Shown piece after piece: positions 48,962-56,752 of a DNA stretch of 64,000 bases (position 1 is the stretch's first letter; every line of letters starts with the position of its first letter). Position numbers and translations under genes: made by a program. Below the pieces are notes generated by a model. That model was not told the origin of the DNA and made no database searches. It saw only the letters and a program-made list of their open reading frames with translations. This DNA comes from Paenibacillus azoreducens (lineage in GTDB: Bacteria; Bacillota; Bacilli; Paenibacillales; Paenibacillaceae). Location: contig NZ_AP025343.1 of the NCBI RefSeq assembly GCF_021654775.1, positions 4,183,501-4,247,500 of the forward strand, in the 5' to 3' direction.

Positions 48962-49396
48962 TTAGGCTAATTTTTGCAAAATAACCGGTTTCTCATATTG
49001 CCGGATGCACCAGTTGTATTTCTCCAACACCTTTTGGTTTACCGATGAGATGGAAGGATCCACTCTTGCAAACCCGAATTTTTCATAAAAATGCTCCAGC
49101 TCCCGAAACGGAATGCAATAAACCGATTCCAAACCTAAGCTTCGGGACTTATCCACCAAACAGCCGACCAATTCATGCGCAAGAGAAAGCCCGCGAAATT
49201 GCTCAAGGATATAGATCCCGCCCATCTCGGCTTCCTTCTCGTTTAGGAGAACTAGTCGTCCTACACCGGCGTTTCGTCCATTATGCGTTACGATCGCGAT
49301 CTCTTCGCGCTCCAGACTGCTTGGAACAAATCCGATCTTCTCGTACTGCTCATTAATCCATGGCAGATCGCTGTTTTCTGCCCATCTGATAGCCAT
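48962..49396 (-). CDS. GNAT family N-acetyltransferase
   Basis: A 144-residue GNAT-fold acyltransferase. The beta4 strand and acetyl-CoA loop region reads GGIYILEQFRGLSLAHELVG (about residues 63-82), a slightly altered R/Q-x-x-G-x-A/G motif, and the C-terminal HFYEKFGFARV fits beta6-beta7. The substrate is unknown. ATG 49396 lies 9 nt after GGAAG; a GTG at 49405 overlaps that site. It is followed by its own terminator. Confidence 0.88.
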   Translation of the reverse strand: MAIRWAENSDLPWINEQYEKIGFVPSSLEREEIAIVTHNGRNAGVGRLVLLNEKEAEMGGIYILEQFRGLSLAHELVGCLVDKSRSLGLESVYCIPFRELEHFYEKFGFARVDPSISSVNQKVLEKYNWCIRQYEKPVILQKLA

Positions 49397-49454
49397 GTAA
49401 CTCACCTTCCCGGTAAAAAGTATAAATATATAATAACAAAATTTCCCGGTCAGG

Positions 49455-50402
49455 TTAAACTTGAACCCGCTTCATTGCTCCATGCGGCAGACAAGCATGC
49501 ACTCCTTTCACGCCGTTTACAATCTGGGTGACCCTTAGATCAATGACAGCGCTGCCCAGAGCCATCGCTTGAACCCGGTCCAAACCATATAACTCTCCCA
49601 TCAAATCAAGCATGCCGTCAAGAGCATAGACCGTCGCTTCGTTCAAATCCTCATGGAAACCAAAAGCAAGCCACCCGGCAGGCGTATCGGCCCGCGGATA
49701 TGCCAAACGCAAATCTTCCAGCAAATGAATGGTGACTTCAACCTCATCCATCGGACATTCGATCGCCTGGCAGCTCACCTCGCCATCCCCTTGCGCCGCA
49801 TGCCCGTCGCCTATAGCCAAATATCCTCCATCTACGGGTACGGGCAAATACAATGTGCTGCCGGTTACAAGTTCTTTGCAATCGATATTCCCTCCGCAAA
49901 AACGGGGCGGCCAGGTAGAATGAATCCCCTCCTCTTCAGGAGGCATGCCAATTACGCCCATAAAAGGGTTGAGCGGTACAGAATAAGCCGCGTCGTTCAT
50001 CCGGCAGCTGCCTTCCATGTTTTCTTTATCCAACGTCCAATCTATAGTGATTTCTTGGTATTCCGTCAGATGCAGCTTTTGATTTTGCCAATTGGGATAT
50101 TGTCCCGCACAAGTAAATCCATATTTTCCGGGGACAATCCGGTTGAACTGAATGGCCAGAGTCATTCCCCGTTTGGCATTTTCGATACAGATCGGGCCGA
50201 TTAAAGCATGGCCGCCATCCAGCTTATCTCTTCTGGCAAACGGCTTAACCCGCTCCTTATATGAAGGTCCTCCCCCCCAGGCCGCATCCGGGGCTTGAAA
50301 ACGAATCGAATCTCCCGATGAAACAGTGATTAACGGCTCGGTATCTTTCGTAAAACACCCGATCAAAGCTTCTCGACATAATCGAATTTCATGTACCGCC
50401 AT
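49455..50402 (-). CDS. Acetamidase/formamidase family protein
   Basis: A 315-residue protein of the FmdA/AmdA family, zinc-dependent amidases that release ammonia from short amides. Family features: GGPSYKERVKPFARRDKLDG with NPxTGP-like GPICIENAKRGMTLAI, CGGNIDCKELVTGSTLYLPV and GDGHAAQGDGE with the metal-ligand Asp/His. ATG 50402 has GGAGGCGG upstream. It is 29 bp downstream of, and co-oriented with, the HTH-F1 beta-like gene, suggesting that gene controls it. The actual substrate is unknown. Confidence 0.9.
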   Translation of the reverse strand: MAVHEIRLCREALIGCFTKDTEPLITVSSGDSIRFQAPDAAWGGGPSYKERVKPFARRDKLDGGHALIGPICIENAKRGMTLAIQFNRIVPGKYGFTCAGQYPNWQNQKLHLTEYQEITIDWTLDKENMEGSCRMNDAAYSVPLNPFMGVIGMPPEEEGIHSTWPPRFCGGNIDCKELVTGSTLYLPVPVDGGYLAIGDGHAAQGDGEVSCQAIECPMDEVEVTIHLLEDLRLAYPRADTPAGWLAFGFHEDLNEATVYALDGMLDLMGELYGLDRVQAMALGSAVIDLRVTQIVNGVKGVHACLPHGAMKRVQV

Positions 50403-50430
50403 ATCATCCGCCTCCAATAAGGAATCAATA

Positions 50431-51480
50431 TTAAACTTTTAATCGTCCCGTAAAATACAGCTCATCGATTGAAACATGGTCGGCCCCGCCATCCAGGATG
50501 ATCCTCACGTCCTCCAACATTTCGTGGAAAGGAATCCATTCCGCCTTTTTCTTGGTGTATGGCTCGGCAATATAAAAAGGTTGTGACAGATAGGCTTCCA
50601 ATCTTTCTCCCCGGAGATATAACAATTGATCCGTTTCCGGGAGCTTCGCTGCCCCCCTGAATTGAACCAAAGGCCGCAGCTCCCGATAACGGCGCATTAA
50701 TTTTCTGGCCTGCTGCTGAATGGACAGATGCTGGGGCTCCAACTGCGATCCTTCCAATAGGACGGAAGTTGAAACGATCGGGTCGATGGCCGGGAATAGT
50801 CGCCTTGTCGTTAGCTCCGTATCAAATCTAAGGAAAGTATCTAATGGCCCATATGGCATCTCTTCGTCCACCGCATCACCGCTGACATCAACGAGAAGCG
50901 TCGTAACCGGGCGAACGCCTAAAGACTTGAGCTTTTCTTTCATATCATCCATCTCGCCGGATAAAACCATAGAACGATCAGCCCCCAAGATCACATCCCT
51001 TCGTTCAGCATGATGAACAATCCGGCCGAAAATTTCCTCAGCCGTTAAGCAAACATCCTCAGACTCTTGCAGCAATTCATCAACCCCCGCCGTATGCTCG
51101 CTGGGCTTCCAAAAGATCGTTGCAAAATCCTTTTTTCTGAATCGGTTTATGAGCTCAGCCAGCAAAGCCATCTGGCCTGTGCCCGGACGGGCCACTAATC
51201 CGACCATGCCTCCCTTAACGACCGGCGCCAATAAATCCAAAACCTTGATTCCCGTTTCAAGCATTTCCAGCGGTTTGCCGCGGATAATGAGTTCGTCCAT
51301 TGTGCAGCCGGCAAGATCCGCAAGCATGGCCAATGTCCGAACCTCCGCCTTTCCGACCGGAATTTTCCCTGTGCAAAGATTTGATACCGTAGCTGGACGC
51401 AGCCCCGCTGTACGGGCAGCAACCGTTAAATTCGGCACGCGGGCCCTTAGCAGAGCTACATTCAGATGCAGTTCATCCAT
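50431..51480 (-). CDS. Helix-turn-helix protein fused to a degenerate F1-ATPase beta-subunit-like domain
   Basis: A 349-residue protein in two parts. Residues 1-66 form a Cro/C1-type helix-turn-helix (LTVAARTAGLRPATVSNLCT). Residues 73-349 resemble the nucleotide-binding and C-terminal parts of ATP synthase beta: LETGIKVLDLLAPVVKGG (74-91), LFPAIDPIVSTS (228-239) and LSQPFYIAEPYT (298-309), close to beta-subunit LETGIKVxDLLAP, YPAVDPLDSTS and LSQPFxVAExFT. The P-loop is ruined: G-x-G-V-G-K-T becomes ARPGTGQM at 97-104, lacking the Lys and Thr, and the GERTREG catalytic segment is missing. So it is not a working ATPase subunit; a ligand-sensing regulator is more likely. AGGAGGTGG precedes ATG 51480. 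Upstream of an acetamidase-like gene in one operon. Confidence 0.85.
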   Translation of the reverse strand: MDELHLNVALLRARVPNLTVAARTAGLRPATVSNLCTGKIPVGKAEVRTLAMLADLAGCTMDELIIRGKPLEMLETGIKVLDLLAPVVKGGMVGLVARPGTGQMALLAELINRFRKKDFATIFWKPSEHTAGVDELLQESEDVCLTAEEIFGRIVHHAERRDVILGADRSMVLSGEMDDMKEKLKSLGVRPVTTLLVDVSGDAVDEEMPYGPLDTFLRFDTELTTRRLFPAIDPIVSTSVLLEGSQLEPQHLSIQQQARKLMRRYRELRPLVQFRGAAKLPETDQLLYLRGERLEAYLSQPFYIAEPYTKKKAEWIPFHEMLEDVRIILDGGADHVSIDELYFTGRLKV

Positions 51481-51498
51481 ATTTATCCACCTCCTGTA

Positions 51499-51516
51499 AT
51501 TACTTTATATAGTAAT
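51499..51516. promoter_or_regulatory. Candidate autoregulatory operator of the HTH-F1 beta-like gene
   Basis: ATTACTTTATATAGTAAT is an 18-bp dyad (ATTACT/AGTAAT arms) at the downstream edge of the -10 box, where a repressor would block transcription. A related half-site AGTAAAT lies at about 51532-51538. Confidence 0.45.
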
Positions 51517-51542
51517 ATATATACCTTTAAAAGTAAATACAA
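51514..51542 (-). promoter_or_regulatory. Candidate promoter of the HTH-F1 beta-like operon
   Basis: Minus strand TTGTAT (51537-51542), 17-nt spacer, TATATT (51514-51519), 34 bp upstream of the start codon. Confidence 0.55.
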
Positions 51543-51552
51543 ATTTTTACAC

Positions 51553-51646
51553 ACAAAAAAAACGCCTGTCCACGCATCCTCATGGAAGACAGATCGTTTT
51601 TACGAGATTATTGAAGGGGATAATGTTGATAAATGTGGGACAGGCG
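51553..51646 (-). terminator. Long-loop terminator-like hairpin upstream of the HTH-F1 beta-like promoter
   Basis: CGCCTGTCC (51563-51571) pairs with GGACAGGCG (51638-51646), 9 bp perfect, with a 66-nt loop and an eight-base T-run on the minus strand. It would block read-through from upstream minus-strand transcripts. Confidence 0.6.
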
Positions 51647-51675
51647 GGGACTATCTCTAGCATGATGAGCAAAAA

Positions 51676-51853
51676 GTTGCGATTCTGCATTTTTTTGCTC
51701 GAATCTCACCATACATACGTTAAATTGATGCGAAAGTGCAATAATTTTACTTATTTTCCTCGTCATACCGAGATCACGCGCTCAAAACTTGCACTTTCGC
51801 AACCTTTTCCTTAAAAAGCCCCTTTCGCCTTGAAAAGCCTGCACTTTCGCAAC
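51676..51853. repeat. Spaced-motif dyad element, family 3 (core TGCACTTTCGCAAC)
   Basis: Inverted copies GTTGCGATTCTGCA (51676-51689, decayed) and GATGCGAAAGTGCA (51727-51740), then direct copies TGCACTTTCGCAAC at 51790-51803 and 51840-51853. Spacings of starts are 51, 63 and 50 bp. Confidence 0.85.
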
Positions 51854-53387: not shown

Positions 53388-54986
53388 TTACTGAATTTGG
53401 GCGGATTGCTGCCTGAACTGCTGCGGAGAAACCTGATATACTTTTCTGAACATCTTAGAGAAATGAGAAAAGTTATGGTAGCCGAAGGTTTTGGCCACAT
53501 CCGAAATCGGAATGCTTGTCGTCGTGATGAGATCTTTTGCCAGCGACATGCGGACATGCAGGATATAATCCGTGATGGACTCGCCTACCTCGCGTTTAAA
53601 CAGGCGGGATAGATAAGCCGGATTGAGATGCACGTAACTGGCAAGCTGTTCCCTTGTGATCTGCTCGCCCAGATTCTCCGTAATATAGTATTTCACCCGC
53701 TGGATGACGGAATGGTTTTGGTGCAATTGATCGTAGATGATCCGGACCAACTGGAGGGACAAGGCTTCCATTTGCTGAAGATTTCGCGGCTGGGCGCTTA
53801 AGAGAAGTCCCTCTTGATCCTGGAACAATTCGAAGGCGGAAAGCCCATTTTTATGGAGAATATAATGTACCATCTGCATGAACTCGTGACGGAATCCCTC
53901 CAGTTCATTCAGGGAAAGACCTGGCATCTTTCCCATCTCCGTTATCCGAGAGCGGATCTCCCGCTGCAGTTCCTCCAGCTTGCCCTGTTCCAGCAGAATC
54001 GTCCACGTCGAAATCCGCGGGATCATTGCTTTGATGGATTGCGTGCCTTGCGCCGCCAAGGTGTACACTTGATTGGATTTATTCAAATTATTGTATTCCA
54101 TCTCCAGCAATTGCCCGTACGTATCCGCAATATCGTAGATCGACGAGCTTTTGCCGATATAACACGATAGGTTGCAGCCAAAATAATGATGGCAATTCCG
54201 GATATATTTTTCACAGCGTGCATGGATATCAAAATCGCCATCTGCCTGCCCATCCTCTCCGAAGGCTATCACGACATTGACGCCTTGTTTGGTCTGAATA
54301 ACCTCGCCCTTTCCGGATGGAAGCAGCATCTCGGATGCGCCTTTGCGAATGGCATACTCCATGATCTCCTCATCTTTGGTACTGAACTCACGCAGCCAGG
54401 ATTCCACGCTGACCAGAATGGGAAGGAATACCGCATGCTGTAGTTCCATAAGCTCATGCTCTTCCAAAATGCCGACGACATTGTTCGGCGAACAAACGAC
54501 TCTGCCTGATAATAGATCATTCCAAAATTTATCCGTAATAAGAGACTTCTTTTTGCGCCATCTCTCATAATACGGCTTGTATTGCTCACGGAGCATATGT
54601 AATTCGCGTTCCTGTTTGATCGATCTTAAGGCCTTGGCAATCGTATCCTGAAGTACATCGAATTCGATCGGCTTTAACAGATAGTCGAAGCCATCCAACT
54701 GAATGGCTCTTTTCATGAAATCGAAATCGGAATGGGCTGTCAGGAAAATCGTCTCCGTCTCGGGCGAGATCTCATTCACCCGCTCCAACAGCTCGATACC
54801 TGTTCCTTTGGGCATTTCAATGTCGCAAATCATCACATCAACCGGAGTACGTTCAAACACCCGCAGCGCGTCCCGCATATTGTAGGCCTCGTATACCTCG
54901 GATACCTGCAATTCCTGCCACTTTACGCCGCTTTTGATTCCCATAACCGCATAAATCTCATCGTCGACGATCAATGCCTTATACAT
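53388..54986 (-). CDS. Response regulator, YesN type (second system)
   Basis: A 532-residue regulator. Receiver domain (ALIVDDEIY; phospho-acceptor in DVMICDIEMP at about residue 55; FDYLLKPIEF) followed by a central domain of about 280 residues and a C-terminal AraC-type DNA-binding domain (VHLNPAYLSRLFKREVGESI, AKTFGYHNFSHFSKMFRKVY). ATG 54986 has AATGGAGGT upstream; a TTG at 55004 lies before that site. The kinase stop is at 55001, 14 bp upstream. Probably activates the binding protein and permeases at 56996-60719. Confidence 0.94.
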   Translation of the reverse strand: MYKALIVDDEIYAVMGIKSGVKWQELQVSEVYEAYNMRDALRVFERTPVDVMICDIEMPKGTGIELLERVNEISPETETIFLTAHSDFDFMKRAIQLDGFDYLLKPIEFDVLQDTIAKALRSIKQERELHMLREQYKPYYERWRKKKSLITDKFWNDLLSGRVVCSPNNVVGILEEHELMELQHAVFLPILVSVESWLREFSTKDEEIMEYAIRKGASEMLLPSGKGEVIQTKQGVNVVIAFGEDGQADGDFDIHARCEKYIRNCHHYFGCNLSCYIGKSSSIYDIADTYGQLLEMEYNNLNKSNQVYTLAAQGTQSIKAMIPRISTWTILLEQGKLEELQREIRSRITEMGKMPGLSLNELEGFRHEFMQMVHYILHKNGLSAFELFQDQEGLLLSAQPRNLQQMEALSLQLVRIIYDQLHQNHSVIQRVKYYITENLGEQITREQLASYVHLNPAYLSRLFKREVGESITDYILHVRMSLAKDLITTTSIPISDVAKTFGYHNFSHFSKMFRKVYQVSPQQFRQQSAQIQ

Positions 54987-55000
54987 AGCACTACCTCCAT

Positions 55001-56752
55001 TCAATATGAAGTGAACTGCTCTACCGTCCGGAAAGGAAGTACGATTCGAACCCTTGCCCCTGCGCCTGGTGCATTATCGAATTCAAGCTGGCTTTTTTGC
55101 CCGAATATATGTTTTAGCCGATACTGTACATTGGAAATCCCCAAATGCTCCCCGTTTTGATTTTCCTTATAACCCCCTGACTGCAGCTGCTCCAGCACCT
55201 CTTGGGAAAAGCCGTTGCCGTTGTCCCATATGACCATTTCCACCTGTTCCTCTTCAAACAAGCGAATGTCAATGGCGATATGGAACGGATGGTCCATGAA
55301 ATCAAAGCCATATTTGATGGCGTTTTCGATAAAAGGCTGAATCAGCAGCGGTGGAATCGCCGCCTTTTCCGCGCCGTTCGAAATACGAATTTCATAAGTG
55401 ATGCGTTCCGGAAAGCGAACCTGCTGGATTTTGATATAACTCTCCATATGCTCCATTTCTTCCGCAACCGTCACTGCCACCTGGTTGGTTTTGGTCGTGA
55501 AACGGAAATATTTTACCAAGTTCATGCACATGAGCTGGATGACGCTGTAATTTTTAATCTCCGCCAGATTGTATACGATGTTGATGGAGTTCAATAGAAA
55601 ATGAGGGTTGATCTGAAGCTGCAAATGTTTGAGTTCCGCTTTATGCGCTTTGATCTGTTCTTCATACACGCTGATTTTCAGCCGATGAATTTCGGATGCC
55701 ATACTGTTAAAGGTTTCGTTGATGATCGCGAATTCTTTTGACTTTGAGGATTGAAGCCGGGTATCCCAGTCGCCATGTTTAATTCTCCGCATCCCGCGAA
55801 CCAGATTGTTCATGGGCTTTAGGATAATATCATTGAGATAAACCAGATAAATGAACAAAATAATGAGCGCAATCCCGGAAATAATCAGAATCCCTCTGCG
55901 GAAATGATATAAATTTTTCAGCATCTGGGACTCCGGAATAAACGCGCTTAAAATGACGTCCGTTCCCTGGATCTGATTCATAACGACGATATATTTGCGG
56001 TCATCCGTTTCTACAACCTGGTATACCTCATTGGATTCAGGTGCAAGCGAGGGGTCCAGGCGGCTCGGACCAATCCCAGGCGAACTCGTGATCAGTTCCC
56101 CCTCAGAACTCGCGAAACCGGCAAAACCATCCTCCAAATGGATCAGATCCAGCGGGATCATTAAATTTTCAAGCTCCACAAAAGCCCCAAGATAGAAATT
56201 GTCTCCCGTATCAACAAGCCGGATTAAGGCGTATTTCCCCCGGCTGTACTCGGTAGCTTTCCATTCCCGGAAATAACCGCTCTCCGGACGGACCTCCTTG
56301 ACCAGCTTCTCAATGGTGGTTTTGATGGCCATAAACTCTTCATAGGATTTCGTTTTGATCGGCGTGGTGAATAAATCCTGTTTTTGCACTGAATAGATAA
56401 ATTGCAGATCGACGCTGTTGTCGAACCGGTGGTACCTCGTGAATGTGTTCAATATCCTGGCTTTGGCCAGGTAATATTCGTCGGGATCGTGAAGCAGCTG
56501 CGAAAGGGCGGCGATATTGGGATCTTCCACGGCGATATTATAGAGAAAATTCGTTTCCTTGTTCAAAGCCGCTTCGATCTGGTGGGAATACAATATCATT
56601 GAGTTTTTATTCGAATCCGCCACCTGCTCCCGGATCGTATTGGATGCATAATAATTGTTGTAGAGCAGAAGCCCTACCAGAGGAACCGCAATCGTCACGA
56701 AACCGATGATTAACTTGAAGCGAAGCGAATGTTTAATATTCAACATATTCAT
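55001..56752 (-). CDS. Sensor histidine kinase, YesM type (second system)
   Basis: A 583-residue kinase with a first membrane helix at about residues 12-31, an extracellular sensing domain of about 250 residues, a second helix near 290 (GILIISGIALIILFIYLVYL), a HAMP domain, the phospho-acceptor His in LQINPHFLLNSINI and the ATP-binding domain (QPFIENAIKYGF, IWDNGNGF). The ribosome binding site is weak; ATG 56752 or 56746 could be used. It lies just before the partner regulator and downstream of a binding-protein gene, the usual arrangement for sugar-sensing YesM kinases. Confidence 0.93.
   Translation of the reverse strand: MNMLNIKHSLRFKLIIGFVTIAVPLVGLLLYNNYYASNTIREQVADSNKNSMILYSHQIEAALNKETNFLYNIAVEDPNIAALSQLLHDPDEYYLAKARILNTFTRYHRFDNSVDLQFIYSVQKQDLFTTPIKTKSYEEFMAIKTTIEKLVKEVRPESGYFREWKATEYSRGKYALIRLVDTGDNFYLGAFVELENLMIPLDLIHLEDGFAGFASSEGELITSSPGIGPSRLDPSLAPESNEVYQVVETDDRKYIVVMNQIQGTDVILSAFIPESQMLKNLYHFRRGILIISGIALIILFIYLVYLNDIILKPMNNLVRGMRRIKHGDWDTRLQSSKSKEFAIINETFNSMASEIHRLKISVYEEQIKAHKAELKHLQLQINPHFLLNSINIVYNLAEIKNYSVIQLMCMNLVKYFRFTTKTNQVAVTVAEEMEHMESYIKIQQVRFPERITYEIRISNGAEKAAIPPLLIQPFIENAIKYGFDFMDHPFHIAIDIRLFEEEQVEMVIWDNGNGFSQEVLEQLQSGGYKENQNGEHLGISNVQYRLKHIFGQKSQLEFDNAPGAGARVRIVLPFRTVEQFTSY

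Follow-up and report, generated by a model that had tools for sequence, protein, structure and literature searches.

The locus analysed here raises the question of what a protein does that carries a predicted DNA-binding domain at its head and, behind it, a subunit of the rotary ATP synthase from which the catalytic residues have disappeared. The gene lies in a window of 64,000 nucleotides, which is the whole stretch of DNA analysed, from the genome of Paenibacillus azoreducens (Table 1). With a probability of roughly 65%, we propose that it encodes a one-component local regulator, most likely an autorepressor, in which a Cro/C1-type helix-turn-helix (HTH) domain is fused to a catalytically dead F1-ATPase subunit beta.

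Table 1. Positions of the regulator gene, its predicted control elements and its neighbour within the window.
Feature	Position	Strand	Basis
Regulator gene, 349 aa, HTH and dead F1-beta-like body	50431..51480	-	
HTH part, residues 1-66	51283..51480	-	Weak profile match and helical model
F1-beta-like body, residues 67-349, without N-terminal barrel	50434..51282	-	Profile and fold comparison
Degenerate P-loop RPGTGQM, residues 98-104 (F1 beta: GAGVGKT)	51169..51189	-	
Ribosome-binding site AGGAGG	51490..51495	-	Read from the sequence
Proximal operator palindrome TTACTTTATATAGTAA (predicted)	51500..51515	.	
Distal operator palindrome ATACCTTTAAAAGTAA (predicted), 21 bp from the proximal one	51521..51536	.	
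Acetamidase/formamidase-family gene, probably in one operon with the preceding regulator; TTG at 50417 as alternative start	49455..50402	-	PF03069

The fusion of an HTH to an F1-beta domain, which a preliminary description of this DNA had proposed, was confirmed by profile search, by fold comparison and by the existence of a whole family with the same architecture. Members of this family were taken from 79 genomic loci and from two database searches that contributed 240 proteins (7999 and 7996 candidates scored, with the best 120 of 930 and the best 120 of 865 matches taken), in total 319 sequences or 269 non-redundant members at 95% identity, and the HTH is present in all 269. The atpD equivalog profile TIGR01039 matches the regulator with 120.2 bits (cut-off 462.85), and the matches to other rotary or RecA-like ATPases of the same superfamily (V-type A/B, FliI and Rho) are weaker. 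When residues 67-349 were compared by fold, F1 beta was found and not an unrelated structure. The alignment to F1 beta begins near beta residue 129, and the HTH stands in place of the N-terminal beta-barrel, which neither profile nor fold comparison found in the regulator. The HTH resembles those of Cro/C1-type regulators in the helix pattern of the model and in its palindromic operator, although the match of residues 1-66 to PF13443 (HTH_26) stays, with 19.1 bits, below the curated cut-off of 22. Its recognition-helix residues T31, V32, S33 and L35 are identical in 269 of 269 members. A further difference from F1 beta is the deletion in the regulator of the 24 residues following Walker B; in F1, the loop after Walker B faces the rotor and the neighbouring subunits.

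The status of the protein as a regulator is supported, on the level of sequence, by a conserved tandem operator that stands before the regulator gene or its operon and also before separate target genes. The upstream regions compared were those of the window and of 79 loci (80 loci had been kept of 288 candidates, and L039 gave no start). In a matrix scan, the 16-bp palindrome TTACTnTnnAnAGTAA was present in 71 of these 80 regions, versus a mean of 1.3 after shuffling, with at least two sites in 70 regions and at least three in 30, and the sites were spaced by 22 bp (61 cases), 23 bp (18) or 21 bp (8), other spacings being few. The matrix had been trained on the same 80 regions, and thus a held-out check matters: tandem arrays were present in all four members not used for the matrix. 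The dyad previously noted over the regulator's promoter is conserved, but it is only half of the device, the distal palindrome being its tandem partner. Nine upstream regions contained no site, seven of which belong to operons with the array before the first gene (L008, L010, L021, L048, L063, L068 and L076) or, at L048, with two sites 45 bp apart instead of an array. At L082, two sites lie about 350-400 bp upstream of the regulator, and at L061 no array was found despite an acetamidase neighbour.

The two operators differ in a characteristic manner. At position 3, the operator second from the gene mostly carries G (TTG, 50 of 70 regions) and the proximal one A (TTA, 65 of 70); the proximal operator also contains a TACTnT hexamer in 59 of 70 regions. 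This would be expected if the -35 and -10 elements lie inside the two operators. A sigma-70 scan of 49300-51800 picked no promoter at the operators, so that this reading rests on the family pattern. It should be noted that a second repeated element, the 14-mer TGCACTTTCGCAAC, lies upstream of the regulator, with exact copies at 51790 and 51840 (+) and, on the opposite strand, a copy at 51727-51740 that differs at one position; allowing up to two mismatches, five copies were found in the whole window versus 0.6 expected.

Which genes stand under this operator besides the regulator itself? The gene behind the regulator in the window had been called acetamidase-like, and, judged by profile score, its product is a member of the acetamidase/formamidase family (PF03069, 91.4 bits, cut-off 27), with a score of 59.2 bits for the formamidase equivalog NF045496, below the cut-off of 500. 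The association recurs in relatives: a PF03069 gene adjoins the regulator or lies one gene further in 15 of 80 loci (downstream in 9, upstream in 6), a count in which three loci had no called gene, of which L076 was read separately and L011 and L014 were entered, uninspected, as lacking such a neighbour. Mapped onto the tree, the presence of this neighbour changes nine times, and at least four changes are forced by strongly supported branches. Within the genus, a PF03069 gene is present in 19 of the 24 regulator-bearing genomes (all positive genomes) versus 6 of 24 regulator-lacking ones (taken from 76 negative genomes; p=4e-4), and in 16 of the 24 regulator-bearing genomes it lies at most 1.6 kb from the regulator.

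Some genomes without a PF03069 neighbour carry an amidase-signature enzyme instead. The amidase gene follows the regulator with a one-base overlap in L019 and L032, and it stands away from the regulator under its own tandem operator in L163 (genome of L025) and L142 (genome of L016); the four enzymes form one group and are 51-77% identical. A search of 58 genomes, consisting of 41 regulator-bearing entries (40 distinct genomes) and 17 regulator-lacking ones, revealed orthologs of the amidase in 4 of 40 distinct regulator-bearing and 8 of 17 regulator-lacking genomes. An operator pair was present in the amidase stretch in all four regulator-bearing versus none of the eight regulator-lacking genomes; in two of the four regulator-bearing ones, the pair is that of the regulator's promoter and the amidase comes second in the operon. 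Bacillus suaedaesalsae has a further predicted target apart from the regulator, an M3 oligoendopeptidase (above the cut-off of TIGR02289, no Pfam match), and the regulator operon includes BAAT-type or alpha/beta hydrolases in L008, L010, L048 and L063, as it probably does in L205. Taken together, the predicted targets point to hydrolases, above all to enzymes that split amides, and the regulator probably controls itself together with such enzymes. One possible single-site target is a GNAT gene of Mesobacillus persicus, which is preceded at a distance of 25 bp by a lone perfect operator (L210:2441-2456) and followed by a BCCT transporter gene.

Several other neighbours were observed. In the window, a peptidase A4 (eqolisin-type) gene (PF01828, 52672-53385, +) lies beside the regulator, as do related genes in L005, L006 and L007. 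Next to it, an AraC-type response regulator and a histidine kinase form a pair (53388-56752, -), and in L005 and L006 the acetamidase-family gene has a related kinase (cluster c20) downstream of it. A DJC28_CD (PF09350) gene follows directly after the regulator in L009 (9039-9488) and L069, both copies belonging to the same cluster, and a protein of Paenibacillus tarimensis (P0018, 516 aa) is listed with the regulator domain and DJC28_CD in one chain.

The regulon appears to be small. A strict tandem pattern matched 3 of 25 genomes and was loosened for two further scans, in which it matched 28 of 49 and 20 of 56 regulator-bearing genomes, with no matches in the reversed control. The remaining 21 and 36 genomes include that of the window, which was missed because its distal operator deviates; such scans therefore miss real arrays. 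Among the loci retrieved for tandem matches, 27 of 29 and 20 of 22 contain the regulator's HTH motif, which places the arrays almost only at the regulator. Elsewhere, matches stand at the L142 amidase and at three places that look like chance (L149, L179 and L174), of which L149 and L179 are the same place counted twice. A wide regulon in the window's genome was rejected, as 19 single sites with at most one mismatch (the regulator's own included) compare with 30 in the reversed control, and so was a single-site regulon in 16 relatives, where 21 perfect sites versus 14 in the control indicate no enrichment. Of these perfect sites, 17 came with a locus, 13 of them holding the regulator's HTH motif and 4 not, and one of the 4 sites without a locus is that of the M3 peptidase. 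Many regulators of Bacillaceae are stand-alone genes, for which no target besides the gene itself was found in the neighbourhoods of the 80 loci.

The near restriction of arrays to the regulator's own gene, the lack of enrichment of lone operators and the many stand-alone genes would also be in accordance with a protein that works through its F1-beta body, for example as a buffer or as an assembly factor that binds a nucleotide, a metabolite or F1 subunits, and that uses its HTH mainly to keep its own level constant. However, the recurrent acetamidase-family partners and the separate targets with arrays of their own, as well as the deletion of the loop after Walker B, make this explanation unlikely.

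The residues of the former ATP site are informative about the role of the F1-beta body. The position of the Walker-A Lys is occupied by Gln, preceded by Gly, in 269 of 269 members, the next residue (Thr in F1 beta) is Leu, Val, Met, Ile or Phe in 268 of 269, and GK[ST] does not occur at the P-loop in any of the 319 family sequences. The GERTREG motif was not found, and the catalytic-Glu column holds Glu in 28 of 164 aligned members, AtpD itself having a gap at this column of the 269-member alignment. The loss of Lys, Thr and the catalytic segment reported for the single gene extends to the family, in which no intact P-loop was found. Other features of F1 beta are kept, namely the Walker-B Asp in 267 of 269 members and aromatic residues at position 229 (267 of 269), 302 (Phe, 247 of 269) and 308 (Phe or Tyr, 247 of 269), which we take to correspond to Tyr345, Phe418 and Phe424 of the adenine pocket of bovine F1 beta. 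Such a pocket would be fit to hold something flat, with no hydrolysis of a triphosphate. The loss of the phosphate-binding residues, together with the presence of two to four operators in phase, could alternatively mean that the body binds no ligand and merely provides an oligomerisation platform through which the array is bound cooperatively. Nevertheless, 247-269 of 269 members have kept the aromatic pocket, the Walker-B Asp and the invariant Gln, for which a bare scaffold would have no use, and we regard a role as platform alone as quite improbable.

For the proposed autorepressor, we infer that the F1-beta part acts as effector or sensor and that the direction of control is repression. HTH dimers would bind to two to four of the 16-bp palindromes, about two helical turns apart, and, with -35 and -10 inside the palindromes, the bound protein would keep RNA polymerase away, so that the regulator and the enzyme of its operon (in the window, the acetamidase/formamidase-family hydrolase) would be shut off. 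The F1-beta body would serve as sensor and as oligomer part: having kept the aromatic adenine pocket and the Walker-B Asp and lost the phosphate-holding Lys and Thr and the catalytic Glu, it may bind a ligand but not hydrolyse it, the ligand being of adenine type or a different small molecule connected with amide use, and the DNA would be released upon binding. A more specific version, which we put forward tentatively, is that a rotary-ATPase subunit has been turned into a ligand-sensing factor, in which an amide or an adenine-containing metabolite is sensed by the adenine pocket, several HTH dimers of one oligomer, assembled somewhat as in the ancestor, hold two to four in-phase operators, and the ligand opens the oligomer and thereby frees the amide-hydrolase operon. 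The third, upstream operator in 30 of 80 regions might be taken to indicate an activator, or a protein acting with both signs, but a protein bound to two proximal operators that, by the family pattern, contain -35 and -10 should block the polymerase, and activation is very unlikely.

The nearest working analogue of the proposed regulator is PurR of Firmicutes. According to PMC8789054, PurR is a repressor in which a winged HTH is joined to a phosphoribosyltransferase fold without enzymatic activity, and which binds PRPP and (p)ppGpp. Both proteins would thus combine a DNA-binding head with a dead enzyme, the old active site of which would bind the effector. There is no kinship between the two, as neither the effector fold nor the HTH of PurR is related to that of the regulator, and PurR has a regulon of purine genes and known ligands, whereas the predicted targets of the regulator are mostly local.

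The combination of an HTH with a dead F1 beta had been suspected to be a class not described before, and indeed no description of it, nor any precedent for an F1-type ATPase subunit as the sensor of a transcription factor, was found in searches of open-licence PMC papers; the accessible part of a review on formamide (PMC10781810) names no such regulator. If our reading is true, the F1-beta scaffold gains a new career, many proteins labelled ATP synthase beta obtain a function that can be tested, and a ready operator and a small set of targets, the amide hydrolases, are at hand for finding the ligand of a fossil ATP site.

With respect to its origin, the family forms a single clade of 25 rows (support 100/100) in a tree with rows of F1 alpha, V-type, FliI and F1 beta, Rho being outside the tree. 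It is joined to F1 beta, and not to F1 alpha, V-type or FliI, with a support of 98/92, and the stem is 2.29 changes per column long. The grouping of F1 beta alone is moderately supported (91/62), and thus the family may be a sister of F1 beta or may have arisen inside it. Many sources name members F-type H+-transporting ATPase subunit beta, a misleading label, as an ordinary paralogue of ATP synthase beta or an annotation artefact is excluded almost with certainty by the score of 120 bits versus an atpD cut-off of 463, the tree, the missing barrel, the lost Lys and Thr, the location outside the atp operon and not beside atpA, with an operator of its own, and the presence of normal atpD and atpA genes elsewhere in the window's genome (G000:C1, 6.85 Mb).

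The distribution of the family is patchy. In samples that each include the window's genome, it was found in 24 of 100 genomes of the genus, in 12 of 299 genomes and 11 of 118 genera of the class and, by high score, in 2 of 299 genomes of the phylum. Across the genomes used in the analysis as a whole, some were entered twice, as judged by equal coordinates (G342=G416, G387=G410, G388=G422, G363=G419 and G357=G433). Named members stem from Paenibacillus, Bacillus, Thalassobacillus, Alicyclobacillus, Planococcus, Sporosarcina and Lysinibacillus. Three other assignments of the gene were rejected: as a phage gene (none of the 26 pattern matches of a viral scan is a relative), as a plasmid gene (of 110 matching plasmid records, 20 were listed, among which a 0.9-Mb replicon of P. 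cellulositrophicus carries the one true member) and as part of anti-phage defence (PADLOC gave no match for the two proteins submitted). An HTH-only search for stand-alone paralogues yielded only 22 short proteins, which look like pieces of the regulator family. One 78-aa HTH piece (P0123) is labelled as Actinobacillus pleuropneumoniae, outside the range otherwise seen, and is likely to represent contamination. Finally, one genome harbours, in addition to a full-length member, a second, shortened copy (L207, G711:C23), which consists of the HTH part with a stop and retains operator sites.
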